Source of the DNA: Liolophura sinensis
Lineage: Eukaryota > Mollusca > Polyplacophora > Chitonida > Chitonidae
Length of the DNA: 64,000 nucleotides
Direction of reading: 5' to 3'
Assembly: GCF_032854445.1 (NCBI RefSeq)
Contig: NC_088296.1
Span: 11,880,706 to 11,944,705, forward strand
Below are positions 5,845 to 64,000 of the stretch, piece by piece (the stretch's first letter is position 1; each line of letters begins with the position of its first letter). The translations under genes and the position numbers were made by a program. Below the pieces are notes generated by a model, which saw only the letters and a list, made by a program, of their open reading frames with translations, was not told the DNA's origin and ran no database searches.

Positions 5845-5968
5845 TATTTATTTATTTATTTATTTGATTGGTGTTTTACGCAGTACTCAAGAATATTTCA
5901 CTTATACGACGGCGACCAGCAATATGGTGGAAGAAAACCGGACAGAGCCCGGGGGAAACCCACGACCA
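5845..5968 (-). mobile_element. Truncated SINE at the left boundary of the tandem array
   Basis: On the minus strand this is the 3' half of the second SINE type, from its ATTT-rich tail to a truncation point at CACGACCAAT. The same SINE with the same truncation point starts unit 2 (32421) and unit 3 (54399). Sequence left of position about 5870 is unique to this copy; sequence to the right is shared by all three units. Confidence 0.85.
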
Positions 5969-6329
5969 ATGACAAATTTAAAAATCAGTTCTTAAATATA
6001 AGCTCAGGAATTATTAAAGAACTACTTCTATGAGTGTCAAGACTTGTAGGCCTAAATGATAAGGATTGAGATAGTCTGAATTTCTTTACTAAATTCATCC
6101 ATGCTTTAACGCCAGCAAAACTTCCCATCGTGTGCTCTCCTTGTCTTCTGGGCCAGTTCAAAAGTGTTTTAGCCGATAGTGGTATTAAGGCATATTTTAT
6201 ATTTAAATTTTTACCCGCACTCAGTAGCCAATGTTGTTCTCCAAAGTCAGAGTATAACAGCAGCAGTTTTAATTCATATTTAATCCAATGGTACATATTT
6301 TTTTTTGGTGAAGTACAAAATTGAAGACT

Positions 6330-6520
6330 AAATTGGTTGTTCAAAACTGGTTTAAGACTTAATACCAGATTTAACTATAAGTCAAGTGAAGACTTGACTT
6401 ATAGTTAAATTTACACCTGGGATTAACTCAAGTCTTCAGTTTTACACCTGGGATTAAGATAAATCTTTCATCAATAAATAATCCCAGTTTAACTTAATCC
6501 TACTTAACTCAAAAATAATT
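6330..6520. repeat. MITE-like region with perfect 19-bp hairpin
   Basis: Arms at 6369-6387 and 6392-6410 are perfect reverse complements (arm ATTTAACTATAAGTCAAGT) around the loop GAAG. The surrounding sequence repeats the motif TTACACCTGGGATTA twice and ends in TTAATCCTACTTAACTC. The unit 3 counterpart at about 54895-54925 has one arm only, so the hairpin is a difference between the copies. Confidence 0.7.
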
Positions 6521-6543
6521 GCGTAACAGTATATGAACTCAAT

Positions 6544-7049
6544 ATGATGCAGAATTTGGACAACTGTATTGGCTGCTGGATTTGGCTAAAGTCTGAAATA
6601 GAAAGTGATTCATTGCAGAAGACGTTAGAAAAGTTTGTTTGTGAGCTGTATGGCTGGGTTGACTCGGACTCAGATGTGGACAGGTCACTGATTGTAAATT
6701 GCCACCAAATGCAGACAACCTATATTTACATGCTATGAGGGCAAATTACCAAACAAAAGTCTACAGATCTTGTTTGAAACAAAACATCTGTGCTCCTAGT
6801 CCAACAGATCATGGCTGGAAGATAACAGACTCCAAGCTCAGTATCCGTTGGTCCACTATGCCCGTAGCACCAGACCAGGTTCTTAAGAAAGTCAGTTGTG
6901 GCTGTCAGAAGAGTTCTTGCGATTTTCTTTAATGTTCATGTAAGAAGGCTGGTATGGACTGTACAGATATGTGTCAATGTAGCGGATGCCAAAATCGTCA
7001 GAACATTAATCTGCAGGAAGACAGTGACGGTGATAACTCCGCTGATTAG
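6544..7049 (+). pseudogene. Broken CXC (tesmin-like) domain coding remnant
   Basis: The readable protein contains LEKFVCELYGW, then LYLHAMRANYQTKVYRSCLK, PSPTDHGWKI and SIRW, followed by a cysteine-rich CGCQKSSC and CSCKKAGMDCTDMCQCSGCQ. This order matches a multi-copy metazoan protein family with a C-terminal cysteine-rich CXC region, usually uncharacterised and apparently linked to transposable elements (recalled, not searched). An in-frame TAA at 6930-6932 splits the cysteine region, and 38 further codons run to a TAG at 7047-7049. An 11-bp insertion relative to unit 3, near 6660-6672, also breaks the upstream frame. Confidence 0.75.
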
Positions 7050-7329
7050 AACTCTTATTATTGCTGTCTTAAAAATACTGTTTACAAATTGTGTGACTGG
7101 TTGCATTTCAGTTCACAATGACTGGCTACACTGCTTTTTTTTTTTGTTGTTGAATGTAGAATAACAGATGAAGTCACAGTCTTCGGCCTTTATGTGTATT
7201 CTAGCATTTACTTGACAGGTTACTTTGAAACCAAGATCTTCTGTTTTTCAGTTATGGATATTTCTAGTACCAGTAATTAAGTTTTTGACAGTAAATATTC
7301 TGTGTAAATAAATAGATTGTGGCCATATG

Positions 7330-7665
7330 CCATTATGTACCATATGAGACGTGGTTTCAATCCCATTCTCGGACAGGGAGCTTTCGAGGCTCCCCCGCTT
7401 CCATTGTTTGTGGTGCCTTGGTAGCAATAAGTGATGGAGGGTGCTCTTTTGTGGGTGGTGTTACATGCAGCCGTTCGTTGGACATCCCCTGCTGTCCACC
7501 ACTGTGACATACGCTAGTGTGTCAGATGTGGGAGAGTCAGTTACTCGCCAAAGGTCGGTGGTTTACAGCGGGCACTTCGCTTTCCTCCACCAATAAAGTC
7601 TGTCCGTCATCACATAAGTGAAAAATTCTTGAGTATGACGTTAAACAACAATCCAAAACAAAAAA
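7330..7665 (+). mobile_element. SINE-like element, third head type
   Basis: A B-box-like GTGGTTTCAATCCC lies at about 7350, and the 3' end reads GAAAAATTCTTGAGTATGAC followed by GTTAAACAACAATCC, the same tail class as the other SINEs. The body differs from both other types. An A-rich run follows. A matching copy lies in unit 3 at about 55797-56125, so the insertion predates the duplication. Confidence 0.65.
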
Positions 7666-7669
7666 AAAA

Positions 7670-9784
7670 GAAGATAAAGGACAGCTAATGGTGTGAACTT
7701 TCTCTTACATGCTGAAAGCAACTATTTCATGATGTCGTCATGAACGTCAATGACGCATGTAAAATTCTTCGACAAACATATATCCTAGCAGGTGTAATTT
7801 ACAAAATATATTGAAACTTAACCTGTACAGCTACTCAAGGGTTGTTATGTTTATAAACCATGTGTTTCTAGGTACGTGTCAGGTGAGATTCATGAAGTAT
7901 TTGATTGGTGTACCGTTTCAAAATAGCGTATACAATTCAGTTCTGAGAAAAAACAACTCCTCCTTCAATGCTTGGTTTTCATTAGTGAACAAATATTTTC
8001 AGTCGAACACTGGTGATTCTGAACAAGGCTTTCACGGGGAACATTTTGATATAAAATTCGTGTATTTAGACTTTCAGGCTGAAGCACTTCAAATTTCTAA
8101 GCCCTTTGACAGATTCGGCCCATGGCCTACATGCAGTATTAGCTATTACATTTTCGAACAACTGGGCCGGGACTCGAACTATCTGACCCACAATTTAACA
8201 ACGGTCACACACGTGCGTGTATACATGTAGGGAGCACTCATCAGATCTGCTATACATACTCTCCGACATTATAAACAGGGCGTAATCATACATTGCGAGA
8301 CCTTTCCGCTATCCCGAGAAATGACAGCTCCCGTAGGCCCAAATCGATCGTTCCTTCAAGACGACCAATCACTGTGGAAGTCTTCGTCACGGGATCTAGC
8401 GTTACGACGTGTGCAAATAACAAGTTGGTTGACTTTGTGCAGAGTGTTTGCATTTGTTGGAAAGCGATAGAGACTATTTTGGAGGACAGAGGATTCTCTT
8501 CACTGACAGATACTGAGGGAGCGATAAAATCTGCACTGGTGAAAAGAATGCAACACTGACACTGTCTTGACAAATTCATTTCCATCAGCGGTTCGGTGGG
8601 TAACAAACAGACCACAAGACGAGGTCACGCCTTCTGGTGAGTAAAATTGACATCAGAATAAACATTCTCTTAGATTTGTGTGTCAGTAAAATGTGACCAG
8701 AGCTGTGTATACGTCAAAGACTCTTGTTACTGAACGATGATTTAGTAATTTTTCTGTTGGGCGCCTTCAATTGTTGAGGTCATTTGCTCGAAACGAAAGT
8801 GAAAGTAACTGCCGGTAGGGCCTATATGAGTGATTGAAATATTATATGTTTTGAACGAATTTATGACATCAAGTTAGTGGTCTTACATAAATTGAAGGAT
8901 CCTGTGCTTGCGTGGGCGGGCGTGTTGGAGATTGTATGTATTCTTATACTACTAAACCGGCTTAATTGAGTTGCTTTGGCAAATTACTATTTTCACTTTC
9001 TTTTTGTACCGGGATTAACTTAATGAGTTTAGAACAACACTGGTTGCTCAATAAAACATACTGCTACAAAACACTACAGTAGAAGTAGCTCAATTAAATT
9101 CAACAATTTCAAATTTTTCACCGTACCGGTATCACATTTAATTTAATTGAGTTACACTGTACTTTCATTGACCGAGTGTTATACATTCGCCTGGTTATAT
9201 TTGGACGGTACCTGGATAGTCATGGATTGCTTCCATCCAACCCTGAAGGATATACTTCGTAAAATGTCGAAGAACAGTCGATTCCTAACCTTTACTGCCT
9301 GTCCAGTTACTCCTTCATGATGCTTATAGGCTGCTATGCTGCCAGGCATATCATCCTAAAGGTAAATCGCCATCGGGAATCGTACAATTAATGTATAGTG
9401 CAAGTAAAATTTGAAGCGAAAAATCAGACCTGCCATTAATTAGTCAATGGAGACCTGTATGATCTACCGTTAATTCAGAATACTGACTTGGGGACACATA
9501 AATGCCATAAATGATAATTGTGTGGCCAAGACTTAAGTTTTCCTGAATTTCACAAGGTGAAATCAGGTGAGTTAATCAAGCAAAATTTGTCGCTTGAAAA
9601 ATGCTAAACTTTAGGTAAAATGCAGTACATATTTACATTCACTTTAACTGCATCATTATTGTTGGTGTGCTCAGTTAGCATCAACTTTGGACTTTTAATT
9701 CTTTTAATTTCATTAATTTCTTAAGTGTGCCCCTTAATTAATTTGAAATGAAGGCCAATACGGGGTACAATTTCTACATGCTCT
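7670..9784. other. No supportable gene
   Basis: Small open frames occur at 7811-8230 (139 codons, non-ATG start) and around 8286-8615 on both strands. They stay open in unit 3, but the few differences I checked in the first frame mostly change amino acids and I recognise no domain. A tRNA B-box-like block (AGTTCGAGTCC on the minus strand, about 8170) suggests another old tRNA-derived fragment. The remainder is AT-rich. Confidence 0.45.
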
Positions 9785-10541
9785 AACTGTCACCTCAATG
9801 AAGAGCAACTGAGAGACCATCACCCTATAATGACTGTGGCCTCAATAAAGAGGAACTGAGAGATAGTCGCCCTGTAATAACTGTGACTTCAGTGAAGAGC
9901 AACTTAGAGACAATCACCCTATAAAACTGTGATTTCAATGAAGAGCAACTGAGAGACAGTAACCCTATAATAACTGTGACCTCAATGAAGAGCAACTGAG
10001 AGACAATCACCCTATAATAACTGTTACCTCAATGAAGAGAAACTGAGAGACAATCACCCTATAATAACTGTAACCTCAAGGAAGAGCAACTGAGAAACAA
10101 TCACCCCATAATAATTGTGACCTCAGTGAAGAGCAACTGAGAGACAATCACCATATAATAACTGTGACCTCGATAAAGAGCAACTGAGAAACAATCGCCC
10201 CATAATAATTGTGACCTCAGTGAAGAGCAACTAAAAGACAATCGCCCCATGATAACTGTGACCTCAATGAATAGCAACTGAGAGACAATCACCCAATAAC
10301 GACTGTGACCTCAATAAAGAGCAACTGAGAGACAATCACCCTATAATAACTGTGACCTCAATGAAGAGCAACTGAGAGATAGTCACCCTGTAATGACTGT
10401 GACCTTAATGAATAGCAACTGAGAGACAATCACCCTATAATAACTGTGACCTCATTGAAGAGGAACTGAGAGACAATCACCCTATAATGACTGCGACCTC
10501 AATGACGAGCAACTGAGAGACAATCACCCTTTAATAACTGT
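9785..10541. repeat. 47-bp minisatellite, unit 1
   Basis: About 16 tandem units of 47 bp built on TGTGACCTCAATGAAGAGCA and ACTGAGAGACAATCACCCTA. The spacing is clear at 10321 and 10368. The array is missing from unit 2 (inside its deletion) and longer in unit 3 (58240-59167). Confidence 0.95.
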
Positions 10542-12101
10542 GCTGTATTATTTTTCAGGAATTCCCAATGAAGAATTTTGCACTGTGAAACCATCACATC
10601 ATTTTTCTTATTAATCGTGTCCCTTTTCATGCAATGCCTTAAAGTTGTCCTAGCTATTACGGATATGCTTAATTTCTTTATTTGACTGTTCAAGAATTCT
10701 TTGACTTGTATGATGACAATCAGCTATAATGGGTAGAGGAAATGCAGCGTGCTAGGAATAAACCACCGACATTTGACAAATTACTCACTAACTTTGTATA
10801 TGTGATGTGTAGACATGCATGTCAAATTAGTGAAGTTCGAAAGGTCTTCAGCAGACAAGGTGTTCATTGTCAGCTGCTCCTTGTCACACACACAGCAGTG
10901 AGCGCAGGGGAATCTACAAATTCCTTTTGTAAGGCCACGGTTTTGAACTTGCCCCTCAACGTCCGATGCCTTAAAGAATGAATATAGATGCATCAAATAT
11001 ACATTCTTGTATATGTAGATTTATGCACAGGGTGTATATTACACAGCACAAGTAGGCCTACGCAATTTTAAGTCAAGGTCGTCCACACACCTGACAAACC
11101 TATACATGTTCTTGTTGGCTGTTAGTCAATACATGCTGAACAGGTCTGTACCAGTTCTTTGCTTCCGAGAATTATGAGTGACATACTTCCATTGTGTAAG
11201 TCAAACACTAACTGAATAAATGCCTTACACCTAGAACTCCTTGAATTACAGAGAGAAACCCCCACAGCCTATTTGTGTGACTGATCTGCTGACGTATTAT
11301 TGTATTACATGTACCTTACCCACTGTGCCTTATAATTTAAGGAAACTTCAGTAGCACTGTACTGCAGGTGGGTACCTTTCTTGCATTAATATATACATTG
11401 TATGCAAACAGTTTTTTCAAACTTCTTTTTATCCCCCCACCCCCACCCCACCCTCCTAACGAAATTTTGGCGGGTGGTGGGTTTGGGTATACTTGAATAG
11501 CCCTGCCTGTCCATGTGTCTGCAGGCACAGTTTTGTCCTCTCATCTCCTCCCAAACAGCTGCACTGGTTTGGATGATGTTTGATGAAACTTTTCATACAT
11601 CGATCTTACCTGTCATCTGAAGTTGTGCATTCTTAGATTTAGTGGCAATCGTCATTATTTTCATAATTAGCCTCATTTAGGACTTGTCTTAATAGTACTT
11701 TTCCATGTATTTAGATTTTTGTCGATGCAACTCTGCCTAAAGCATTGAAACTATTTCCATGTCTTTCCTATTGATCTAAATTTGTGCATGCTTAAGATTG
11801 ATTACAATCAGGTAATTAATTTCGTAAAAGCCCTTGCTGAGCTACGTGCACGTACATGTATAGTGCAATAATAGATTTTCATGTCCGTGCAACTCTGCTA
11901 AAGTATTGCACCAATTTCCCTGAAAACTTTGTGCATAAGTTTTATATCATATAAACATCTGCGTGCAAGAATAATAATGGCACGTTGATTATCATTTTTA
12001 TCTTCATCTTCTTTCTTTCATTGTTGGAATGTTGGAGAAGGAAAATCATCTCAAAGGGTCTTTGATGTGGATTCCGAATATTGTTCTCTTTTCCATTTCA
12101 G
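10542..12101. other. 5' flank of TRIM copy 1
   Basis: No coding sequence is recognised. It contains a C-rich run (about 11432-11455) next to GGCGGGTGGTGGG, conserved in all three units, and ends with a polypyrimidine tract and acceptor TTTCCATTTCAG at the putative non-coding exon. A promoter is expected here or upstream, but I cannot place one. Confidence 0.4.
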
Positions 12102-12151
12102 ACTGCGCCATTTTGTGAAGTTGTGAAGCACGGTGGGATTTGTGTCGACAG
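12102..12151 (+). other. Putative 5' UTR exon of TRIM copy 1
   Basis: A 50-nt segment is bounded by a strong acceptor (TTTTCCATTTCAG) and a consensus donor (GACAG|GTAAGT). It is almost unchanged in unit 2 (33839-33888), splice sites included, while flanking sequence has changed more. It holds no ATG in a useful frame. The next acceptor (13214) lies 18 nt before the TRIM start codon, so this fits an upstream non-coding exon. Transcript support is lacking, and it could instead be an internal UTR exon. Confidence 0.55.
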
Positions 12152-15100
12152 GTAAGTCCTGTAAGATCGAGTATGCCTATTTTTATGGCTGGATGTTTCT
12201 ATCAGGTGAGTGAATTGTCTTTACTCGGTCGTGTTACCGACAGTATTTAGTTGGTTTGGTCGTCCTCAAATCGACGGCGTGTTTTTGTATAGACTCTACC
12301 CTCAGCCTGTGGGTGAAACTCTAACACTGTCGATGCGCAGTCATTATATTTCCATCTCATAGAAAACATCTAACAACAACTTGTATATAAGCGACCTTCC
12401 CGTTATGATGTATATGTTATAAACACCCAGATGTATATGTAAGCATGAAGTGACTATGTGTAGTATTAACGCCACACACAGCAGACATTACAGCCTCGCC
12501 TATTGATCATGGATAATGGAAGGCGTAACACAGCTTCGCCCGTCAGGGCGGTGGTATACCCACATGCAGGACTGGTATAGAACTGGTATAGATAAGATAG
12601 GGCTGCCTGTGTGAGTTTTAACAGATACTAACCTACTTTTACAGCCTATAGCTTACGGATCTCCTGTTCAGGCTGATAAGTTGTCTTTGTATTCCTAACA
12701 ATAACACAATAAAATACTGGAAGGTGGCAGAGTTTGACCCGTCACAATTTTCTCAGATAGAGAAACTTTAGACATTCGACCCCATTATCACATAGTGTCA
12801 TGTTCTACTGACAACCACTGTAGTCCAGACATTTGGCTCCATTATCATGTACAGTTAAGCTCCTTTCCATGCCACTGTCCTCCAGACGTCTGAGCCGATT
12901 ATCTTATACCTGAAGTCCCACCATTTCTGTTGAAGATGTTTGCAAATAGGCTGGTCCTACCTTTAAATCGTCAAATGTCTAACTGAGCAGTTATTTCCAC
13001 TCAGGGAAGCGAGGCGCTCAAACTCTCATGTAACATGTATCGCAATGCTTCTTTAGCAATAGCGACAAAAAATACTGTACCCCATATGTTGTTGGAAGAG
13101 AGGAATATGCACTGAACTGCAGATGGAGACGGTGTACTGTGTTGAAATTTTATATTTTCGTTAATGGAGATTTGTATTGGTACCAGTTTAAGTAATTTGC
13201 TGGTTTTATTTCAGTAAAAAACCGAGGGTGTAATGGCTGAAAGCAAGGAAAATCGTGAAGCAGTCCTCACATGTCCGATATGTGTGGAAACATTCCGCAA
13301 ACCAGTAACGTTACCTTGTCAGCACAGTTTTTGCAGGGAGTGTATTGGTGTGTATGCTGACAAGTTTAAACCTGGACAGACAGATGAGGTCTTCACGGGG
13401 AGTGAGGGTGTTCACCAGCTGATCTCATGCCCTGTATGTCGGACACCAACCAGTCTGGGGAGAGAAGGTGTGGCTGGTCTGCCTCACAACTTTCATCTGG
13501 CTGAAATAGTGGAGAGGTTCTCTTCTGCTGTGAAGTTTGAGGATGATACCCCATATTGTTCTCTGTGTGAGGAGGATAATCAGGCTAAAGCTGTCAAGTT
13601 TTGTACCAACTGTTGTTTACTGTATTGTAAAGACTGTCTGGTTTCTCTTCATCCCATGAGGGGGGCTATGAAACGTCACTGGCTGATTTCCTCCCTGGAG
13701 TACCTCTCTCAGGAAACCTCACAGCGACAGACCAGCAGCAGGGATGAACAATCAACTCAGCAAGCGTCATGTGCGAGACATGGTCAGCCGTTCGTCATGT
13801 ACTGTGAACCGTGTCGGATGGTGATCTGTGTGGGGTGTATGGTTGAGCATCCGGGACATGCTGTGCGGGATATACCATCTGCAGCTGAGAATAACAAGGT
13901 AATGCGAAAAAGACATTCGTATATCAGCCATCGACCAAAATTGATGTTCTGTGTCATTAATAGTAAGGTCAATGCCCAAATCAACAATTGACACGAACCA
14001 TGAAAAAACTAAGAAATTGTACAAAGTACAAGATTACCTTGAGAAAGAGGTGCAATGCAAAGAGAACTGTAGTAAACAGTTATAAATGGTGTGAGAAAGA
14101 CACAAGAAATATTCTAAGCAAACGACTTAAAATCACTCTCCAAATCGTGTACCATGCTAGTATATAAGTCGATAATCAAACTAAATATATCATGACTTGG
14201 AACTATATGTTGACCCAAAGTCTTTAATCTATAGTGAAGAATGGGGCTGTTTGTCTTGTACTGTAATGAGTCGTTTGAATGGCAGATTTTGTAATGTAGC
14301 GTTGTTTCCATTACAGCCAGCTGATTTGAACAAGAGTGGTGAACTGGAGAAAGTGCTAAAAGAAACTAAAGAATCACTGTCAGGAGTTATGAGACTGCAC
14401 AATAAGATACTGGTTGGTATTTTTGATGACACTTGGTCAACTTGTGATTTATTGCATACTTGGTGAGTCGTTTTGAGTATCTAGACTATTGCTATCATTC
14501 ACAAATCCAGGAAACATACAGCTGTCAATTATCTAGGCTAAATAAATCTCTATTCTGTCACATATGATATATGTACATTTTCAACTGAACAGTTAAACCC
14601 GAACAGCGACAACTTTTAACAAGAACTTAAACATGGTAATGCACGGACTACTGCAGGAGTTCATTTGCATGAGGGACGAGTCTATTTGCCTCTTTCTGGT
14701 TTATCTAACCAGACTATTATATCATAATTACAACTTTTTTCTTAGTGACACAACCGCGATATGCTCTCCTCAGGCAACTTCAGCAGATACATCATCGCCG
14801 ATAATACGCTGTCATGATATCTGCATTGTATATACCTACTCCACATATGTGATGGGGTTTAGAGTTTGTGTTTGAGCCAACCACTGGTGGTCTCCACAAC
14901 ATAAAGGCTACACCATCTCACCCTGCCCGGAGCACCATTTGCGATGTTGAACCAACAACGTTTCTGAGTCGACACTTACATGTGTATGTACGCCACTAGA
15001 TTAAAGGAAAATTCCCTCCAGCCAGAAAGTACATTGTTGACCCATTTGTGTGGTGCTTATATTCCACTCTGTTCCACAAGCATGTATAATTTCTTGAACA

Positions 15101-15654
15101 CACCCGCAATAGTCTGGATGAGGTAATAAATGTTGTTTCTGTTTTGCAGGAAAACAAGGAACTTCACATTGAAGAGGTAGAAAGGGCTTATTGTGCAGCC
15201 TTGGAAGCATTACAAGCCTGGAAACAACAGTCCTTAGATGGCATAGAAACCCGCTATTCACAGTGGAGTGTGGAGTGTAGCGCTATACTCAAACATTTCC
15301 AGCTACAGGCTCAGAAAATGGAGAGGATGGTACAGGCTTCCAAGGATTTAGTAGCGTCATTGGACGTCGAGTTTTTACAGGTAAGTCAGTCATGCACAAT
15401 CTCTAACATTGGTTCAGCTGCCTCAACTCCAGTTAAATACTTTTCAACTAACCACACAGGACGACCTGTCAATTATTTGTCAGCCTCAGAGAACATATGT
15501 AGTTTTCTTACATGTATGGACTGTAGATATCTTGGTTCTGACCGCTCAGTTGTAAACAAATGTGATATGTATGTTGTGTACGTACACAGAGGCATCTCAT
15601 TTACCATTGTCACATTATTGAACCTGTGACGGGCCTCATACAATGACATTAATG

Positions 15655-16075
15655 AACAGTGATCAGGTGTTCAAATCCATCTCATGCTGCCAGGTCTGGT
15701 GAATTTTTATTTCCAGGTTCAACTGCTTTGCTTTGTTCAGTGGTTCTCTCTGGTCGCTGTCTGTTTTTCTACCCATAAATGTTACCGCTGTGTAATTAGA
15801 CTAATAAACAACTCCACGATCCTGTATATGTAATATTAAAAAAGAGTACGTTGTTTGATGTTTTTCGAAAACGACGTGTGAATACGAACTGTAATAAAGT
15901 CCTTATCAGTGTTTGAAACAATAAATTAGCCAAGGTACAAATTGTATATAGACAACCATATCTCATTTGATGTCCCCTTGGGCTCTGCCCAGTTTCCTCA
16001 AACCACAATGTTGAACGCCATCATATAAGAAAAATATTTTGAGCACAACATAAAACATCTATCAAACAAACCATC
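15655..16075 (+). mobile_element. Old SINE pieces in TRIM intron 4, unit 1
   Basis: Two SINE-like pieces are readable on the plus strand: a B-box block GTGTTCAAATCCATCTCATG near 15667 and a 3' part with GGGCTCTGCCCAGTTTCCTC near 15978 and a decayed tail TTTTGAGCACAACATAAAAC. Both lie between coding exons 4 and 5 of TRIM copy 1. The same pieces occur in units 2 and 3. Confidence 0.55.
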
Positions 16076-17029
16076 AAGTTTTGGCTCAATATGTTGTCCC
16101 AATTTTCAGTTATCCGGATGATGATGCCTGCTCCTGTTTTGACTTTTGTAGCCTAAAACAGTTGATTTACCTGGATCAGAAAGTTCAGACCCATAGTTGA
16201 TAAGCCATTAACACAACGGCTACTTTCACAAGCTTGTAACACACAAAATATGATAGCATTTACTGTGTTTGAGGTATTTGTTTGTTTGCAATGTTAAACA
16301 TCATCCTTGTTTTATGCACAAGTATATTTCATTCAAACCTAAATTTTTTATAGGCTATTGTTTTCATAAATATGCTGCCAGGATTACATATATATATTAG
16401 CTAAAATGAGCAGGCCAGGTTCCCCAGATTTTAGAAGGAATAGGGTAGGTAAGGAATCTTTGTTTCGGTTATCATTGTTACATGATTTTATATGTATGCT
16501 CAAATGTGTTTGTTGACAGGTTTCCACGGACTTCACCAAAACGTATGTATAAATATGTTATACCTCTCTAGGTTTGTTATACATGTGAACATGTCAGCAG
16601 ATGTGTTTCTGTAACACTGAGTACCAGCACTGTAGTTGTTCAAAACATAACCCAAGTGTAAAATATATCTAGTGTTCAAACATACATTTGCTCAGACAAA
16701 TCAGACGTAACCTGCTAGGTATATCATGACATTTTCATAACTGTGCGGTACACAGGATTACCACACGACTGTGTCTCTTTGTTTTCTCTTCTCTTCTCAC
16801 AGAACTGATGACCAGCTGAATGAGATAAGAGCAGATCTGGAGAAACATGAGGTCAAGAGAAAGAAGCTTCTAGATTCTATACAACATGACCAAGTTGTTC
16901 CTAGACAGGTGACTGTAAAAGAGACAGTGCAAGAACATCAGGACTTAGAAGCAGCAGTTGGTGGACAAATGTCACCCCTACATGTTACAAGTAGGTTCTT
17001 ATATGTATAAAAGGTATACAGCAGGGTGT

Positions 17030-17960: not shown

Positions 17961-17964
17961 GTGC

Positions 17965-50855: not shown

Positions 50856-50859
50856 TCTT

Positions 50860-53690: not shown

Positions 53691-53931
53691 TAGTCACTTA
53701 TCTTTGCAAATATAATGAAAGTTGAAATCTCCCATCAAACACATTTGTTTAAAGCTGGGTCCGAGGCGTGTGATGTCATCTTATAGTTCTAATGATAAAA
53801 CAATGTTCGGCATTGTCTGGTCTTATAAGAACTCCAATGACAGATTGTCCACTTTTTTGAAGAGATGGTTTTGGTAACATAACATAAATAATCTGAGATG
53901 GATATTATATCAGTGTCTCTTAATCTTGTTG

Positions 53932-54045
53932 TCAGCGCGGCGAAATGACCTTCGAACTTCTCACTAATGCGGTCGCTGTGAGTTTAAGTCCAACTCACAC
54001 TGGCTTCCTCTCCAGCCATAGGTGGGAAGGTCACAGAGTCCTTGC
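53932..54045 (+). mobile_element. SINE 5' half near the end of unit 2
   Basis: Orthologue of 31940-32045, with CTTCTCACTAATGCGGTCGC and the B-box-like GAGTTTAAGTCC. The 3' half is absent. Confidence 0.7.
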
Positions 54046-54398
54046 TGGCGCTCATTCATGCCTCTCGGAACGTTGGCCATCTCTCTGTGAAACCGCAGTA
54101 CCTAGCGCCATGCCTAAAAATGTCCTTTGTAAAGTATTTTTTCCGCATTTTTAATTTACTGTCGAATAAAACAACGCTATGCACTATAATTCCATCGGCA
54201 AACGATATCGCACACACCTGTAGTTATTTTTCGCCTCCAATTCCCGAGAGTTACTTCCAAATCGGAAACCCGTTAGTTAAGACATCTTGAGGGCCTGAGG
54301 CATGGTTTCCGAAGTTCCGGAATCAGCTGGCTGCGCAAATGTCTGTGCAGACGCTCAAATTTTGTGACCTTCCCAAGCCATTGCTTAATAAATCGTTG

Positions 54399-54496
54399 GT
54401 GTTTTACGCCGTACTCAAAAATATTTCACTTATACGACGGCGACCAGCATTATGGTCGGAGGAAACCGGGCAGAGCCCGGGGGAAACCCACGACCA
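54399..54496 (-). mobile_element. Truncated SINE at the unit 2/unit 3 junction
   Basis: Same SINE half and truncation as at 5845-5968 and 32421-32518; its flank is the unit right end, as in unit 2. Confidence 0.85.
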
Positions 54497-55024
54497 ATGA
54501 CAAATTAAAAAATCAGTTCTTAAATATAAGCTCAGGAATTATTAAAGAACTACTTCTATGAGTGTCAAGACTTGTAGGCCTAAATGATAAGGATTGAGAT
54601 AGTCTGAATTTCTTTACTAAATTCATCCATGCTTTAACGCCAGCAAAACTTCCCATCCTGTGCTCTCCTTGTGTTCTGGGTCAGTTGTTCGAAAGTGTTT
54701 TAGCCGACAGTGGTATTAAGGCATATTTTATATTTAAAGTTTTAGCCGCACTCAGCAGCCAATGCAATTGTCCAGTCTATGTATAACTGCAGCAGTTTTA
54801 ATCCATTTTTAATCCAATGGTACATATTTTTTAGGTGAAGTACAAACTTAAAGACTTAATTGTTTGTTCAAAACTGGTTTAAGACTTAATACCAGATTGA
54901 ACTATAAGTCAAGTTTTCAGTTTTACACCTGGGATTAGGATAAATCTGTCATCAATAAATAATCCCAGTTTAACTTAATCCTACTTAACTCAAAAATAAT
55001 TGCGTAACAGTATATGAACTCAAT

Positions 55025-55519
55025 ATGATGCAGAATTTGGACAACTGTATTGGCTGCTGGATTTGGCTAAATTCTGAAATAGAAAGTGATTCATTGCAGA
55101 AGACGTTAGAAAAGTTTGTGTGTGAGCTGTATGGCTGGGTTGGATGTGGACAGGCCACTGATTGTAAATTGCCACCAAATGCAGACAACCTATATTTACA
55201 TGCTATGAGGGCAAATTACCAAACAAAAGTCTACAGATCTTGTTTGAAACAAAACATCTGTGTTCCTAGTCCAACAGATCATGGCTGGAAGATAACAGAC
55301 TCCAAGCTCAGTATCCGTTGGTCCACTATGCCCGTAGCACCAGACCAGGTTCTTAAGAATGTCAGTTGTGGCTGTCAGAAGAGTTCTTGCGATTTTCTTT
55401 AATGTTCATGTAAGAAGGCTGGTATGGACTGTACAGATATGTGTCAATGTAGCGGATGCCAAAATCGTCAGAACATTAATCTGCAGGAAGACAGTGACGG
55501 TGATAACTCCGCTGATTAG
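55025..55519 (+). pseudogene. CXC-domain coding remnant, unit 3
   Basis: One open frame of 125 codons from 55025 reads LEKFVCELYGWVGCGQ, NLYLHAMRANYQTKVYRSCL, PSPTDHGWKI, SIRW and CGCQKSSC, then stops at TAA 55400-55402. In the same frame CSCKKAGMDCTDMCQCSGCQ follows, running to TAG at 55517-55519. The stop is shared with unit 1, so it predates the duplication. The upstream frame is intact here but frame-shifted in unit 1. The family is the same uncharacterised, transposon-associated CXC type. A short truncated product cannot be excluded. Confidence 0.72.
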
Positions 55520-55796
55520 AACTCTTATTATTGCTGTCTTAAAAATACTGTTTACAAATTGTGTGACTGGTTGCAATTCAGTTCACAATGACTGGCTACA
55601 CTGCTTTTTTTTTTTGTTGAATGTAGAATAACAGATGAAGTCACAGTCTTCGGCCTTTATGTGTATTCTAGCATTTATTTGACAGGTTACTTTGAAACCA
55701 AGATCTTCTGTTTTTCAGTTATGGATATTTCCAGTACCAGTAATTAAGTTTTTGACAGTAAATATTCTGTGTAAGTAAATAGATTGTGGCCATATG

Positions 55797-56125
55797 CCAT
55801 TATGTACCACATGAGACGTGGTTTCAATCCCATTCTCGGACAGGGAGCTTTCGAGGCTCCCCCGCTTCCATTGTTTGTGGTGCCTTGGTAGCAATAAGTG
55901 ATGGAGGGTGCTCTTTTGTGGGTGGTGTTACATGCAGCCGTTCGTTGGACATCCCCTGCTGCCCACCATTGTGACATACGCTAGTGTGTCAGATGTGGGA
56001 GAGTCAGTTACTCGCCAAAGGTCGGTGGTTTACAGCGGGCACTTCGCTTTCCTCCACCAATAAAGTCTGTCCGTCATCGCATAAGTGAAAAATTCTTGAG
56101 TATGACATTAAGCAACAATCCAAAA
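55797..56125 (+). mobile_element. SINE-like element, third head type, unit 3
   Basis: Orthologue of 7330-7665, with GTGGTTTCAATCCC and the tail GAAAAATTCTTGAGTATGAC followed by ATTAAGCAACAATCC. Confidence 0.65.
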
Positions 56126-56129
56126 CAAA

Positions 56130-58235
56130 AAAAAGAAGATAAATGACAGCTAATGGTGTGAACTTTCTCTTACATGCTGAAAGCAACTATTTTATGATGT
56201 CGTCATGAACGTCAATGACGCATGTAAAATTCTTCGACAAACATATATCCTAGCAGGTGTAATTTACAAAATATATTGAAACTTAACCTGTACAGCTACT
56301 CAAGGGTTGTTATGTTTATAAACCATGTTTTTCTAGGTACGTGTCAGGTGAGATTCATGAAGTATTTGATTGGTGTACCGTTTCAAAATAGCGTATACAA
56401 TGCAGTTCTGAGAAAAAACAACTCCTCCTTCAATGCTTGGTTTTCATTAGTGAACAAATATTTTCAGTCGAACACTGGTGATTCTGAACAAGGCTTTCAC
56501 GGGGAACATTTTGATATAAAATTCGTGTATTTACCCTTTCAGGCTGAAGCACTTCAAATTTCTAAGCCCTTTGACATATTCGGCCCATGGCCTACATGCA
56601 GTATTAGCTATTACATTTTCGAACAACTGGGCCGGGACTCGAACTATCTGACCCACAATTTAACAACGATCACACACGTGCGTGTATACATGTAGGGAGC
56701 ACTCATCAGACCTGCTATACATACTCTCCGACATTGTAAACAGGGCGTAATCATACATTGCGAGACCTTTCCGCTATCCCGAGAAATGACAGCTCCCGTA
56801 GGCCCAAATCGATCGTTCCTTCAAGTCGACCAATCACTGTGGAAGTCTTCGTTACGGGATCTAGCGTTACGACGTGTGCAAATAACAAGTTGGTTGACTT
56901 TGTGCAGAGTGTTTGCATTTGTTGGAAAGCGATAGAGACTATTTTGGAGGACAGAGGATTCTCTTCACTGACAGGTACTGAGGGAACGATAAAATCTGCA
57001 CTGGTGAAAAGAATGCAACACTGACACTGTCTTGACAAATTCATTTCCATCAGCGGTTCGGTGGGTAACAAACAGACCACAAGACGAGGTCACGCCTTCT
57101 GGTGAGTAAAATTGACATCAGAATAAACATTCTCTTAGATTTGTGTGTCAGTAAAATGTGCCCAGAGCTGTGTATACGTCAAAGACTCTTGTACTGAACG
57201 ATGATTTAGTAATTTTTCTGTGGCGCGCCTTCAATTGTTGAGGTCATTTGCTCGAAACGAAAGTGAAAGTAACTGCCGGTATATGAGTGATTGAAATATT
57301 ATATGTTTTGAACGAATTCATGACATCAAGTTAGTGGTCTTACATAAATTGAAGGATCCTGTGCTTGCGTGGGCGGGCGTGTTGGAGATTGTATGTATTC
57401 TTATACTACTAAACCGGCTTAATTGAGTTGCTTTGGCAAATGACTATTTTCACTTTCTTTTTGTACCGGATTACTTAATGAGTTTAGAACAACACTGGTT
57501 GCTCAATAAAACATACTGCTACAAAACACTAAAGTAGAAGTAGCTCAATTAAATTCAACAATTTCAAATTTTTCACCGTACCGGTATCACATTTAATTTA
57601 AATTGAGTTACACTGTACTTTCATTGACCGAGTGTTATACATTCGCCTGGTTATCTTTGGACGGTACCTGGATAGTCATGGATTGCTTCCATCCAGCCCT
57701 GAAGGATATACTTCGTAAAATGTCGAAGAACAGTCGATTCCTAACCTTTACTGCCTGTCCAGTTACTCCTTCATGATGCTTATAGGCTGCTATGCTGCCA
57801 GGCATATCATCCTAAAGGTAAATCGCCATCGGGAATCGTACAATTAATGTATAGTGCAAGTAAAATTTGAAGCGAAAAATCAGACCTGCCATTAATTAGT
57901 CAATGGAGACCTGTATGATTTACCGTTAATTCAGAATACTGACTTGGGGACACATAAATGCCATAAATGATAATTGTGTGGCCAAGACTTAAGTTTTCCT
58001 GAATTTCACAAGGTGAAATCAGGTGAGTTAATCAAGCAAAATTTGTCGCTTGAAAAATGTTAAACTTAAGGTAAAATGCAGTACATATTTACATTCACTT
58101 TAACTGCACCATTATTGTTGGTGTGCTCAGTTAGCATCAACTTTGAACTTTCAATTCTTTTAATTTCATTAATTTCTTAAGTGTGCCCCTTAATTAATTT
58201 GAAATGAAGGCCAATACGGGGTACAATTTTTACAT
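56130..58235. other. No supportable gene, unit 3
   Basis: Collinear with 7670-9784. The small frames at 56276-56695 and 56758-57024 are equal in length to those of unit 1, but the first differs mostly at amino-acid-changing positions and no domain is recognised. Confidence 0.45.
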
Positions 58236-58239
58236 GCTC

Positions 58240-59167
58240 TAACTGTCACCTCAATGAAGAGCAACTGAGAGACCATCACCCTATAATAACTGTGATCTCA
58301 ATGAAGAGCAACTGAGAGACATTCACCATATAATAACTGTGACCTCAATGAAGAACAACAATCACCCTATAATGACTGTGACCTCAAGGAAGAGCAACTG
58401 AGAGACAATCACCCTATAATAACTGTGACCTCGATAAAGAGCAACTGAGAAACAATCACCCCATAATAATTGTGACCTCAGTGAAGAGCAACTAAAACAC
58501 AATCACCCTATAATAACTGTGACCACAATGAAGAGCAACTAAAACACAATCACCCTATAATAACTGTGACCACAATGAAGAGCAAGTGAGAGACCATCAC
58601 CCTATAAAACTGTGACCTCAATGAGCGGAACTGAGAGACAATCACCCTATAATAACTGTGATCTCAATGAAGAGCAACTGAGAGACATTCACCATATAAT
58701 AACTGTGACCTCAATGAAGAACAACAATCACCCTATAATGATTGTGACCTCAAGGAAGAGCAACTGAGAGACAGTCACCCTATAAAACTGTGACCTCAAT
58801 GAGCGGAACTGAGAGACAATCACCCTATAATAACTGTGATCTCAATGAAGAGCAACTGAGAGACAATCGCCCCATAACGACTGTGACCTCAATAAAGAGC
58901 AACTGAGAGACAATCAACCTTTAATAACTGTGACCTCAATGAAGAGCAACTGAGAGACAATCACCCTATAATAACTGTGACCTCATTGAAGAGCAACTGA
59001 GAGACAATCACCCTATAATGACTGTGACTTCAATGAAGAGCAACTGAGAGACAATCGCCCTATAATGACTGTGACTTCAATGAAGAGCAACTGAGAGACA
59101 ATCACCCTATAATAACTGTGACCTCAATTAAGAACAACTGAGAGACAATCACCCTATAATAACTGTG
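58240..59167. repeat. 47-bp minisatellite, unit 3
   Basis: Same repeat family as 9785-10541, longer and with shortened variant units (GAAGAACAACAATCACCC). A block starting TGTGATCTCA recurs at about 58291, 58657 and 58836, showing higher-order copying inside the array. Confidence 0.95.
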
Positions 59168-59169
59168 CT

Positions 59170-60707
59170 GTATTATTTTTCAGGAATTCCCAATGAAGAA
59201 TTTTGCACTGTGAAACCATCACATCATTTCTCTTATTAATTGTGTCCTTTTTCATGCAATGCCTTAAAGTTGTCCTAACTATTACGGATATGCTTAATTT
59301 CTTTATTTGACTGTTCAAGAATTCTTTGACTTGTATGATGACAGTCAGCTATAATGGGTAGAGAAAATGCATCGTGCTAGGAATAAACCACCGACATTTG
59401 ACAAATTACTCACAAACTTTGTATATGTGATGTGTAGACATGCATGTCAAATTAGCGAACTTCGAAAGGTCTTCAGCAGACAAGGTGTTCATTGTCAGCT
59501 GCTCCTTGTCACACACACAGCAGTGAGCGCAGGGAATCTACAAATTCCTTTTGTAAGGACACGGTTTTGAACTTGCCCCTCAACGTCTGATGCCTTAAAG
59601 AATGAATATAGATGCTTTATGTAGATCAAATATACATTCTTGTATATGTAGATCTATGCACAGGGTGTATATTACACAGCACAAGTAGGCCTACGCAGTT
59701 TTAAGTCAAGGTCGTCCACACACCTGACAAGCCTATACATGTTCTTGTTGGCTGTTAGTCAATACATGCTGAACAGGTCTGTACCAGTTCTTTGCTTCAG
59801 AGAATTATGAGTGACCTACTTCCAATTGTGTAAGTCAAACACTAACTGAATAAATGCCTTACACACCTAGAACTCCTTGAAATACAGAGAGAAACCCCCA
59901 CAGCCCATTTGTGTGACTGATCTGCTGAAGTATTATTGCATTACATGTACCTTACCCACTGTGCCTTATAATTTAAGGAAACTTCATTAGCAGTGTACTG
60001 CAGGTGGGTACCTTTCTTGCATTAATATATACATTGTATGCAAACAGTTTTTTTCAAACTCCTTTTTATCCCCCCACCCCCACCCCATCCTCCTAACGAA
60101 ATTTTGGCGGGTGGTGGGTTTGGGTATACTTGAATCGTCCTGCCTGTCCATGTGTCTGCAGGTACAATTTTGTCCTCTCATCTCCTCCCAAACAGCTGCA
60201 CTGGTTTTGACGATGTTTGATGAAACTTTTCATACATCGATCTTACCTGTCATCTGAACTTGTGCAATTCTTAGGTTTAGTGGCACTCGTCATTATTTTC
60301 ATAATTAGCCTGATTTAGGACTTGTCTTAATAGTACTTTTTCATGTATTTAGATTTTGTCGATGCAACTCTGCCTAAAGCATTGAAACTATTTCCATGTC
60401 TTTCCTATTGATCTAAATTTGTGCATGTTTAAGATTAATTACAGTCAGGTAATTAATTTCGTAAAAGCCCTTGCTGAGCTACGTGCATGTACATGTATTG
60501 TGCAATAATAGATTTTCATGTCCGTGCAACTCTGCTAAAGTATTGCATCAATTTCCCTGAAAACTTTGTGCGTATCTTTTATATCATATAAATATCTGCG
60601 TGCAAGAATAATAATGGCACGTTGATTATCATTTTTATCTTCATCTTTTTTCTTTCATTGTTGGAATGTTGGAGAAGGAAAATCATCTGAAAGGCTGTTT
60701 GATGTGG
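59170..60707. other. 5' flank of TRIM copy 3
   Basis: Collinear with 10542-12070 of unit 1, including the C-rich run near 60070. No gene is recognised. The putative non-coding exon would fall inside the gap. Confidence 0.4.
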
Positions 60708-60907
60708 NNNNNNNNNNNNNNNNNNNNNNNNNNNNNNNNNNNNNNNNNNNNNNNNNNNNNNNNNNNNNNNNNNNNNNNNNNNNNNNNNNNNNNNNNNNNN
60801 NNNNNNNNNNNNNNNNNNNNNNNNNNNNNNNNNNNNNNNNNNNNNNNNNNNNNNNNNNNNNNNNNNNNNNNNNNNNNNNNNNNNNNNNNNNNNNNNNNNN
60901 NNNNNNN
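60708..60907. other. Assembly gap of 200 N
   Basis: Exactly 200 N. By comparison with unit 1 (12071-13684), about 1.6 kb should be here: the putative 5' UTR exon, the first intron, and the RING plus B-box 1 part of the main coding exon. The round length suggests a placeholder, not a measured distance. Confidence 0.97.
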
Positions 60908-63744
60908 ATTTCCTCCCTGGAGTACCTCTCTCAGGAAACCACACAGCGACAGACCAGCAGCAGGGACGAACAATCAACTCAGCAAGCGTCATGTGCGAGA
61001 CATGGTCAGCCGTTCATCATGTACTGTGAACCGTGTCGGATGGTGATCTGTGTGGGGTGTGTGGTTGAGCATCCGGGACATGCTATGCGGGATATACCAT
61101 CTGCAGCTGAGAATGACAAGGTAATGCGAAAAAGACATTCGTATATCAGCCATCGACCAAAATGGATGTTCTGTGTCATTAATAGTAAGGTCAATTCCCA
61201 AATCAACGATTGACACGAACCATGAAAAAACTAAGAAATTGTACAAAGTACAAGATTACCTTGAAAAAGAGGAGCAAAGAGAACTGTAGTAAACAGTTAT
61301 AAATGATGTGAGAAAGACACAAGAAATATTCTAAGCAAATGACTTAAAATCACTCTCCAAATCGTGTACCATGCTAGTATATAAGTCGATAATCAAACTA
61401 AATATATCATGACTTGGAACTATATGTTGACCCAAAGTCTTTAATCTATAGTGAAGAATGGGGCTGTTTGTCTTGTACTGTAATGAGTCGTTTGAATGGC
61501 GGATTTTGTAATGTAGCGTTGTTTCCATTACAGCCAGCTGTTTTGAACAAGAGTGGTGAACTGGAGAAAGTGCTAAAAGAAACTAAAGAATCACTGTCAG
61601 AAGTTACGAGGCTGCACAATAAGATACTGGTTGGTATTTTTGATGACACTTGGTCAACTTGTGATTTATTGCAGACTTGGTGACTCGTTTTGAGTATCTA
61701 GACTATTGCTATCATTCACAAATCCAGGAAACATACAGCTGTCATTTATCTAGGCTAGATAAATCTCTATTCTGTCACATATGATATATGTACATTTTCA
61801 ATTGAACAGTTAAACCCGAACAGCGACAACTTTTAACCAGAGCTTAAACATGGTAATGCACGGACTACTGCAGGGGTTCATTTGCATGAGGGACGAGTCT
61901 ATTTACCTCTTTCTGGTTTATCTAACCAGACTATTATATCATAATTATGACTTTCTTCTTAGTGACACACGCGCGATATGCCCCCCTCAGGCAACTTCAG
62001 TAGATACATCATCGCCGATCATACGCTGTCATAGTATCTATATTGTATATACCTACTCCACATATGTGATGGGGTTTAGAGTTTGTGTTTGAATCAACCA
62101 CTGGTGGTCTCCACAGCATAAAGGCGGCACCATCTCACCCTGCCGGAGCACCATTTGTGATGTTGAACCAACAACGTTTCTGAGTCGACACTTACATGTG
62201 TATGTACGCCACTAAATTAAAGGAAAATTCCCTCCAGCCAGAAAGTACATTGTTGACCCATTTGTGTGGTGCTTATATTCCACTCTGTTACACAGGCATG
62301 TATAATTTCTTGAACACACCCGCAATAGTCTGGATGAGGTAATAAACGTTGTTTCTGTTTGTCAGGAAACTCAGGAACTTCACACTCAAGAGGTAGAAAG
62401 GGCTTATTGTGCAGCCTTGGAAGCATTACAAGCCTGGAAACAGCAGTCCTTAGATGGCATAGAAACCCGCTATTCACAGTGGAGAGTGGAGTGTAGCGCT
62501 ATACTCAAACATTTCCAGCTAAAGGCTCAGAAAATAGAGAGGATGGTACAGGCTTCCAAGGATTTAGTAGCGTCAATGGACGTCGAGTTTTTACAAGTAA
62601 GTCAAACATGCATAGTTTCTACCATTGGTTCAACTGCCTCAACTCCAGGTAAATACCTCAACTAACCACACAAGACAACGTGTCAATTATTTGTCAGCTT
62701 CAGAGAACATATAAAGTTTTCTTACATGTATGAGCTGTAGATATCTTGGTTCTGACTGCTCAATGGTAAACAAATGTGATATGTATGTTGTGTACGTACA
62801 CAGAGGCATCTCATTTACCCTTGTCACATTATTGAACCTGTGACGGGCCTCATACAATGACACTAATGAACAGTGATCAGGTGTTCAAATCCATCTCATG
62901 CTGCCAGGTCTAGTGAATTTTTATTTCCAGGGTTCAACTGCTTTACTTTGTTCAGTGGTTCTCTCTGGTCGCTGTCTGTTTTTCTACCCATAAATGTTAA
63001 CGCTGTGCAATTAGACTGATAATCAACACGACAATCCTATATATGTAATATTAAAAAAGAGTACGTTGTTTGATGTTTTTCGAAAACGACGTGTGAATAC
63101 GAACAGTAATAAAGTCCTTATCAGTGTTTGAAACAATAAATTAGCCAAGGTACAAACCGTATATATACAACCATATCTCATTTGATGTCCCCCCGGGCTC
63201 TGCCCAGTTTCCTCAAACCACAATGCTGAACGCCATCTTTTGAGCACAACATAAAATATCTATCAAACAAACCATCAAGTTTTGGCTCAATATGTTGTCC
63301 CAATTTTCAGTCATCCGGATGATGATGCCTGCTCCTGTTTTGACTTTTGTAGCCCAAAACAGTCGATTTACCGGGATCAGAAAGTTCAGACCCATAGTTG
63401 ATAAGCCATTAACACAACAGCTACTTTCACAAGCTTGTAACACACAAAATATGATAGCATTTACTGTGTTTGAGGTATTTGTTTGTTTGCGATGTTAAAC
63501 ATCATCCTTGTTTTATGCACAAGTATATTTCATTCAAACCTAAATTTTTTTATAGGCTATTGTTTTCATAAATATGCTGCCAGGATTACATATATATATT
63601 AGCTAAAATGAGCAGGCCAGGTTCCCCAGATTTTAGAAGGAATAGGGTAGGTAAGGAATCTTTGTTTCGGTTATCATTGTTACATGATTTTATATATATG
63701 CTCAAATGTGTTTGTTGACAGGTTTCCACGGACTTCATCAAAAC
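60908..63744 (+). CDS. TRIM gene copy 3, partial (gap and window edge)
   Basis: Visible coding parts are 60908-61120 (end of B-box 1 linker, B-box 2 with CARHGQPF and YCEPCRMVICVGC), 61534-61629 (96 nt), 62366-62596 (231 nt) and 63722-63744 (23 nt). All are open and in phase with copies 1 and 2. The RING lies in the gap, and the 188-nt and SPRY exons lie past the window end. Splice sites are conserved, including the weak CTG|GTTGGT donor. The start of the 231-nt exon differs from the other copies (ETQELHTQEVERAY against ENKELHIEEVERAY). Whether the whole gene is functional cannot be judged here. Confidence 0.85.
62874..63275 (+). mobile_element. Old SINE pieces in TRIM intron 4, unit 3
   Basis: Same pieces as in units 1 and 2; a deletion near 63236 has removed part of the tail (the ATATAAGAAAAATA stretch). 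Confidence 0.55.
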
Positions 63745-64000
63745 GTAGGTATAAATGTATTATACCTCTCTAGGTTTGTTATACATGTGCACATGACTGT
63801 TGTCAGCAGATGTGTTTCTGTAACACTGAGTACCAGCACTGTAGTTGTTCAAAACATAACCCTAGTGTAAAATATATCTAGTGTTCAAACATACATTTGC
63901 TCAGACAAATCAGACCTAACCTGCTAGGTATATCATGACATTTTCATAACTGTGTGGTACACAGGATTACCACACGGCTGTGTCTCTTTGTTTTCTCTCC

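Follow-up and report, generated by a model that had tools for sequence, protein, structure and literature searches.

Eight tandem copies of a TRIM locus in a chiton, probably founded by one non-homologous join, and SPRY exons that diverge independently of their RING exons

How did copies of a TRIM-bearing locus come to stand head to tail in the genome of the chiton Liolophura sinensis, and how have the genes within them evolved since? In a self-comparison of the window, by which we mean the whole analysed stretch of 64,000 nucleotides, the longest matches between units run to 2.3-8.7 kb at 87-96% identity, far above chance. The window holds the left part of an array of eight direct tandem units (C2:11886576-12095105), five of which lie beyond it to the right; across the array, unit lengths vary from 21,978 to 32,477 bp and pairwise identities from 93.1 to 96.6%. 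The copies are direct, collinear and adjacent and share a novel junction, and they thus form a tandem segmental duplication. We give a probability of roughly 0.85 to the reading that a TRIM locus was segmentally duplicated into eight direct tandem units, with a single founding join and growth by homologous exchange. An earlier note on this DNA had described three collinear direct copies, starting at 5871, 32421 and 54399, of a 26.5-kb TRIM-bearing unit with a common junction in a SINE; the tandem duplication, the three starts and the common junction are borne out by the collinear copies and their identical join, whereas the count of three falls short and the size fits unit 1 only. The parts of the array needed here are as follows:

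5871..32420, + strand: unit 1, 26,550 bp, leftmost of the eight, with a broken SPRY exon
32421..54398, + strand: unit 2, 21,978 bp, without a 4.8-kb stretch homologous to 6279-11086, its RING/B-box and SPRY exons open
54399..64000, + strand: unit 3, truncated by the end of the window but running on to C2:11967580, 32,477 bp in total, with a scaffold gap inside
60708..60907, no strand: assembly gap of 200 N in unit 3, the RING part being absent here
6279..11086, + strand: the 4.8-kb stretch, present whole or in large part in units 1, 3, 4 and 7; units 2, 5, 6 and 8 have lost it by deletion, all at one and the same base

The absence of the 4.8-kb stretch is the derived state, because a paralogous locus, L018, continues past 6279. 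The 200-N gap means that unit 3, as far as it lies within the window, consists of two assembled pieces. One end of an unplaced contig, C189, matches the RING part absent at the gap, with 99.5% identity to unit 5, and abuts the base following the gap; the assembly joins unit 3 across the gap, and C189 gives a different continuation there.

The units carry a predicted TRIM gene with a RING, two B-boxes, a coiled coil and a SPRY domain, the exons of which lie in the window as listed:

13233..13898, + strand: RING and two B-box exon of unit 1 (Pfam)
15090..15401, + strand: coiled-coil exon of unit 1, a weak TRIM_CC match
18956..19531, + strand: SPRY exon of unit 1, broken, with matches spread over several frames
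35257..35922, + strand: RING and B-box exon of unit 2 (Pfam)
37098..37409, + strand: coiled-coil exon of unit 2
40920..41498, + strand: SPRY exon of unit 2, open (Pfam)
62306..62617, + strand: coiled-coil exon of unit 3

Pfam finds the RING and B-box zinc fingers in both unit 1 and unit 2, and the TRIM_CC match of unit 1 (E=0.0035, 17.6 bits) lies below the cut-off of 30. All 19 chiton SPRY exons scanned match PF00622, and none of these 19 matches the PRY family, so that Pfam sees SPRY alone. A single SPRY sequence found no match in the PDB at E 0.001; a profile built from the 19 members matched TRIM21 and an RFPL1-like protein (4 sequences, E 0.01). The TRIM-SPRY family to which the array belongs has about 70 members and is concentrated on this chromosome.

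The two ends of the gene evolve very differently. Within the array, the SPRY exon has a dN/dS of 2.04, with dN exceeding dS in 21/21 pairs and a bootstrap range of 1.26-3.38 for the uncorrected ratio, and the RING a dN/dS of 0.43; one-ratio estimates of omega are 2.17 for SPRY and 0.52 for RING in the array, and 2.68 and 0.40, respectively, at ten other loci. By these pairwise and one-ratio estimates, which are taken over the whole exon, the SPRY/B30.2 domain is under positive selection. Synonymous divergence is likewise uncoupled: among 26 loci, RING dS is greater than SPRY dS in 320 of the 325 pairs, and the two are uncorrelated (r 0.06). This suggests that SPRY exons are probably passing between loci by gene conversion, an explanation that we favour but do not regard as proven. 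Under it, conversion would supply recognition variants to genes whose RING/B-box part is conserved. We lean, with some reserve, towards regarding the SPRY exons as one pool, in which conversion would connect loci separated by megabases and, occasionally, loci on different chromosomes, with diversifying selection keeping the copies different; the pool would be a protostome counterpart, probably an independent one, of fish NLR-B30.2 and finTRIM.

The likeness of SPRY exons between loci may instead come from constrained synonymous sites, with no exchange at all, an explanation that we consider doubtful but keep in sight. In its favour, a run-length test, a weak one, gave little excess of discrete conversion tracts: long shared SPRY tracts were found in 10/325 pairs at p<0.01 (3.2 expected) and in 12/946 (9.5 expected), and RING came out above SPRY (33/325 pairs). 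Also, intron block 2401-2550, away from the SPRY exon, is alike between loci (91.0%), which means that local likeness has other causes too. Constraint fits less well with mean SPRY dS values of 0.032, 0.044, 0.054, 0.066 and 0.056 in bins of rising RING dS, the highest bin being 0.30-0.60, nor does it readily account for array SPRYs that are about as near to distant loci as to one another when most intron blocks a few hundred bases from the exon lack such closeness. The trees also speak against it: that of the RING groups the array with 1 label change, whereas that of SPRY, weakly resolved with 1/14 inner branches well supported and a bootstrap that has not settled, leaves the array ungrouped with 5 label changes against 5.7 in shuffles (200/500 shuffles as low). 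Against exchange, SPRY distance still depends on physical distance, with a Mantel r of 0.272 (2/2000 permutations as high; RING, 0.370 and 0/2000), and the weak resolution of the SPRY tree also counts against it. A compatibility analysis of synonymous SPRY sites rested on 4 sites and was uninformative.

An array of this kind could also be built by an assembler, if it strung together, head to tail, the divergent haplotypes of a single unit or of a shorter array. The Liolophura japonica genome paper reports HiFi reads of 8.3 kb on average at 14x coverage; the mean is less than the unit length, and the number and order of the units thus rest on the assembler. This coverage and read length, the 200-N gap inside unit 3 and the unplaced contig that adjoins it speak for joined haplotypes. 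On the other hand, the units differ by 3.4-6.9%, that is 2.7 to 5.6 times the genome heterozygosity of 1.24% given in the same paper, and purge_dups was applied in the assembly. The units show no block pattern (pairs 1-5, 2-6, 3-7 and 4-8 are 96.0, 94.8, 95.2 and 94.0% identical), and the join, which a haplotype with a single copy would lack, is present seven times. This is not conclusive, since an immune-type locus may be more heterozygous than the genome on average. We hold joined haplotypes to be unlikely, and give them very little credence.

The edges of the array and its junctions bear on the origin of the duplication, and the following features lie there:

5846..5968, - strand: truncated SINE, with an (ATTT)n tail at 5846-5870 and the core from 5871
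5835..5845, + strand: left copy of the SINE target-site duplication, ATGACAAATTT, 11 bp, with an empty site in L018
5969..5979, + strand: right copy of the target-site duplication, 11 bp
32042..32418, + strand: initial part of a dispersed transposon that has inverted ends; the duplication breakpoint truncates it here, where unit 1 ends on the right
32409..32431, + strand: junction between units 1 and 2, AATAAATCGT joined to TGGTGTTTTACGC
54387..54409, + strand: junction between units 2 and 3, its join identical to that of the first junction

The SINE, which we take from its structure to lie on the minus strand and presumably belongs to MetaSINE, is of an abundant family, a 30-mer across its tail/core boundary having 7,439 exact copies in the genome. 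Paralogue L018 is an empty site for it, and its tail is present in unit 1 alone of the eight. No Rfam match was found in the 64-kb window at gathering thresholds, and neither the window nor either of two SINE loci contained a tRNA gene. At the other end, the right edge of the array retains the pre-duplication state, with the transposon uninterrupted (5' motif at 214073, break at 214400 and 3' end at 215523 in window coordinates extended rightward). The element runs through the breakpoint in four of the five dispersed copies compared, the match at L022 ending 9 bases short, and it is absent at the corresponding place in both paralogous TRIM loci compared, L019 and L025. It may be a hAT element. 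Such elements have short terminal inverted repeats and an 8-bp target duplication; here, the ends read CAGAGTCCTAGCTAGC in unit 1 and GCTAGCTAGGGGTCTG at the right edge, with an imperfect duplication only, around AGGTC. The end of the unit was also considered as a transposon terminus, which is ruled out by the element continuing past the base where matches stopped.

All seven internal junctions carry the same join, and a 27-base pattern of it, with up to 2 mismatches allowed, matches the genome seven times, always within the array (reversed control, 0). In the join, the interior of the transposon meets the boundary between SINE tail and core, and the microhomology there is 1 bp at most; the founding of the array was for that reason non-homologous. 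Because of one shared T, the breakpoint can be placed only to within a base.

The earlier note had placed both window junctions in the 3' tail of the same truncated SINE, taken the ATTT-rich left flank as unique and proposed that the array grew as SINE copies in the same orientation underwent unequal crossing over. The junctions do fall in the SINE, more precisely at its tail/core boundary and without the tail in 7/7; the ATTT-rich flank is the SINE's own 3' tail, the 11-bp duplication standing on either side of the whole element. The proposed growth, and with it the idea that the array was both founded and enlarged by exchange between two same-orientation SINEs, we consider very improbable. 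The position of the junction and the abundance of the family speak for it, as does a stretch some hundreds of bases past the right edge that, by eye, resembles a diverged SINE of the same orientation. The model requires that the right breakpoint have a SINE in the same orientation and that the junctions hold a hybrid, tailed SINE, and it is left unsupported as neither is present: the right breakpoint lies in uninterrupted transposon with no SINE, so that the breakpoints do not both have a SINE in the same orientation, and the junctions lack the tail expected of a SINE that arrived by target-primed reverse transcription. Like Alu-Alu-type crossing over, the chiton event left a junction in a SINE; unlike it, the join used one SINE only, the partner breakpoint being in another element. 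Aberrant transposition of the right-hand transposon, suggested by the right breakpoint falling within that element, is hardly credible as the founding event with the break about 330 bp inside the element, away from its ends.

Crossovers confined to the SINE would, moreover, leave the units whole, and the units are internally mosaic. Across 703 informative sites, adjacent-site incompatibility is 0.161 against 0.502 in shuffled order, and incompatibility climbs with distance, being 0.106 for sites within 50 bp of each other and 0.60 for those more than 5 kb apart. Large indels conflict as well: units 1, 3, 4 and 7 share the 4.8-kb stretch, units 4 and 6 share deletions, and an insertion of about 555 bp is common to units 4, 5 and 8. 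Homologous recombination among the units after the founding is strongly supported, and the mosaicism implies that the 22-32 kb of homology is where the later exchanges took place. To restate the favoured history, the assembled sequence shows that a SINE inserted to the left of an ancestral TRIM locus and a dispersed transposon to its right, and that one event then joined the transposon interior to the SINE tail/core boundary, a single join that today is present seven times. That event was probably end joining or replicative template switching. Afterwards, exchange among repeats of 22-32 kb, by unequal crossing over and/or gene conversion, made the units mosaic. As both edges of the locus, the empty sites of both elements and the single join all survive, the non-homologous founding can be separated from the homologous growth, and the case shows that a SINE at a junction does not imply SINE-SINE recombination.

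The TRIM-SPRY result is the weightier of the two, and it has parallels in vertebrates. Most zebrafish NLR-B30.2 genes sit on one chromosome arm, gene conversion differs between the B30.2 and the remainder of the gene, and the B30.2 is positively selected, according to the part of that report used here (PMC4852459); the chiton TRIM-SPRY genes resemble them in their concentration on one chromosome, in selection on SPRY/B30.2 and in the uncoupling of SPRY from RING, and differ in being TRIM-type genes of a mollusc where those are fish NLRs, and in that their conversion tracts are putative. The teleost finTRIMs are, in the sections of the paper drawn on, a TRIM family grown large by duplication, the B30.2/SPRY domain of which is positively selected (PMC2657112). 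The chiton family is likewise large, duplicated and positively selected in SPRY, but its SPRY exons lack a PRY match (19 scanned) and its host is a protostome. The portion of an earlier TRIM survey available to us describes a fast-evolving group 2 and reports no invertebrate members of the SPRY groups, naming worm, fruit fly and Ciona; the predicted chiton gene would have the RING, B-box(es), coiled coil and SPRY of those groups, and it belongs to a mollusc. Among the matches listed in our literature search there was no mollusc TRIM-SPRY family of this kind, which is no proof of its being unpublished. In a mollusc, a dN/dS of about 2 over the whole SPRY exon, together with SPRY divergence independent of the RING, points to a fast-evolving recognition repertoire outside the vertebrates.

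Self-comparison confirmed the three collinear direct copies, starting at 5871, 32421 and 54399, that the earlier note had seen in the window, but three is not their total. Probing the genome with both unit ends (best 40 of 4,118 and best 40 of 2,724 candidates) showed that the array extends beyond the window, and once C2:11944706-12099705 (C2 being contig NC_088296.1) had been added, we counted eight units, of 26,550, 21,978, 32,477, 25,565, 22,532, 30,490, 26,413 and 22,525 bp from left to right. Their pairwise identity is 93.1-96.6% over aligned bases, in an alignment anchored on unit 1 with insertions dropped. The array is a well-preserved case of a known kind, and the features of the region, numbered from the window's first base and on past its right end unless a contig is given, are as follows.

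1-2922: 24-base tandem repeat, 122 copies, left of the array
9784-10542: 47-base tandem repeat in unit 1, 16.2 copies
58240-59167: the same 47-base repeat in unit 3, 20.2 copies
60708-60907: run of 200 Ns inside unit 3, the only one in the 219 kb
76233-83590: insertion of about 7.4 kb private to unit 3
136998-145293: insertion of about 8.3 kb private to unit 6
about 214070 to 215523: dispersed transposon with inverted ends, containing the right-hand array break at 214400
C2:12111040-12116954 (L033 and L051): another TRIM gene, lying beyond the array's right edge and not part of the duplication

In unit 3, the 600 bases that follow the gap match unit 5 at 99.3-99.7% identity. The opening 1.2 kb of the unplaced contig C189 (72.9 kb, first 10 kb examined) adjoins them with no base between, at what would be 13685/13686 in unit 1, and is itself 99.5% identical to unit 5; the order at the gap therefore depends on scaffolding. 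Further along, C189:1206-5331 is repeat DNA that a probe from C189:2500-4500 also found on contigs C13 (14.90-14.94 Mb), C8 (40.48 Mb) and C9. The genome comprises 609,464,459 bases in 632 contigs; the Liolophura japonica assembly is described as built from HiFi reads (mean 8,347 bp, 14x) with hifiasm, then purge_dups and YaHS scaffolding (PMC11068029). That the units are joined haplotypes rather than true copies is strongly, though not conclusively, contradicted by their divergence of 3.4-6.9%, against a mean heterozygosity given for L. japonica as 1.24% (PMC11068029), since heterozygosity at an immune-type locus can exceed the mean.

The units begin in a truncated SINE (left edge TTTATTTGATTGGTGTTTTACGC) and end in the dispersed transposon (right edge TTAATAAATCGTAAATTACGCG). 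The internal junction, AATAAATCGTTGGTGTTTTACGC, is present seven times, one copy having a single upstream change; allowing up to two mismatches, the pattern has seven forward matches in the searchable part of the assembled genome, all at array junctions, and its reversed control none. The ATTT flank, previously thought unique, belongs to the SINE, as a 30-mer spanning tail and core has 7,439 exact genome copies (control 0). ATGACAAATTT stands on both sides of the SINE (5835-5845 and 5969-5979), and L018 (C2:11831800-11834800), a paralogue in inverted orientation that covers part of the unit's left end and the flank beside it, has a matching site lacking the SINE and so acts as its empty site. 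On the right, four of the five dispersed element copies examined cross the breakpoint uninterrupted, as does the array edge, the match to the fifth (L022) ending 9 bases before it; the element is absent from two paralogous TRIM loci, L019 and L025. Unequal crossing over between SINE copies, the mechanism first proposed, is wrong in its key step: under it, the right breakpoint should hold another SINE and each junction a hybrid SINE complete with tail, and neither is there. The sequence common to both sides of the join is a single T. We conclude that the array was founded by one nonhomologous event, which end joining or template switching would fit equally well.

Later history is another matter. 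Across 703 biallelic informative sites, drawn from columns complete in all eight units with tandem-repeat stretches masked, the minimum number of recombination intervals is 186, a figure that homoplasy can inflate. Adjacent sites have an incompatibility of 0.161, whereas shuffling their order gives 0.502 (200 shuffles, minimum 0.462). The value grows with spacing, from 0.106 for sites at most 50 bp apart to 0.598 for those more than 5 kb apart, and large indels show the same kind of conflict; the units have thus exchanged sequence internally, by crossing over or conversion. Units 4 and 6 have in common a divergent block and deletions in the region homologous to about 12000-18900, as well as a two-residue RING insertion also present in the 17-locus consensus; of the 426 informative sites between 11871 and 20870, 191 separate these two units from the other six.

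The units match Pfam models for RING, two B-boxes and SPRY, and weakly for a coiled coil; we infer that these exons are joined in one gene. RING is open in all seven units where it can be read, the gap affecting unit 3, and SPRY is open in seven of eight, being broken in unit 1. Searched with the SPRY of unit 2, the genome yielded 127 matches (all 137 candidates scored), among which we counted 73 with at least 70% identity over at least 150 residues; of these 73, 68 lack a stop and 59 lie on C2, which is 4.7% of the genome. More distant exons (about 42-57% identity) cluster on C13 at 3.2-3.3 and 13.0-13.1 Mb. In the PDB, a profile of 19 SPRY sequences hits TRIM21 and an RFPL1-like protein, and by eye the variable sites seem to lie in loose parts of that alignment.

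The dN/dS ratio differs between the domains. Array SPRY exons (seven units) have mean dN 0.102 and dS 0.050, with dN above dS in 21/21 pairs and a bootstrap range of 1.26-3.38 for the uncorrected ratio, against a dN/dS of 0.43 (0.30-0.65) for RING/B-box and 0.61 (bootstrap interval 0.36-1.13) for the coiled coil. One-ratio codon models give 2.17 (array), 2.68 (ten other loci) and 2.51 (all 17) for SPRY, and 0.516, 0.397 and 0.435 for RING; diversity by codon position is 0.091/0.105/0.060 and 0.066/0.060/0.107, respectively (17 sequences each). In a larger set of 44 of the 73 SPRY exons (seven array, 37 others), all chosen for open frames and leaving aside 29 matches, five of them with stops, dN exceeds dS in 21/21 array, 254/259 array-other and 646/666 other-other pairs, and all 44 proteins are distinct.

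The RING and SPRY exons are uncoupled in their divergence. Among 26 loci with both, the two exons being assigned to each other by strand and closeness, dS is higher in RING than in SPRY in 320/325 pairs and SPRY dN exceeds dS in 317; dS ranges over 0.007-0.547 for RING and 0.007-0.123 for SPRY, with a correlation of 0.06, and mean SPRY dS by rising bin of RING dS is 0.032 (4 pairs), 0.044 (14), 0.054 (119), 0.066 (117) and 0.056 (71). Of the two trees built for 17 loci, the one from RING recovers the array as a group, with 86% bootstrap support; the one from SPRY requires 5 label changes vs. 5.7 in shuffles, but is poorly resolved, with one of 14 inner branches well supported and the bootstrap not settled. 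In 150-base blocks, the SPRY exon is 87.8-94.0% identical within the array and 88.4-94.2% to the ten other loci, and intron blocks at distances beyond a few hundred bases are mostly 46-77% identical to those loci (one exception, 91.0%). Near-neighbour compatibility, as low in 0/1000 shuffles for 26 SPRY sequences and 24/1000 for 44, suggests recombination within SPRY; for RING, 219/1000 shuffles were as low. Against conversion of SPRY, a run-length test found little excess there and a larger one in RING, and SPRY distance is still related to how far apart the loci lie on C2 (Mantel r 0.272, 2/2000 permutations as high; RING 0.370, 0/2000). Interlocus conversion of SPRY is favoured, but not proven.

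The TRIM-SPRY family is the part of the result most worth following. In a 2008 survey, no invertebrate gene fell into the TRIM groups that carry SPRY (PMC2533329). For zebrafish NLRs, whose genes sit together on one arm of a chromosome, the B30.2 domain is described as undergoing both conversion and positive selection (PMC4852459), and for finTRIMs selection on B30.2 is described (PMC2657112). The chiton family would work in a similar way, a likeness of mode that need not mean membership in finTRIM or group 2.
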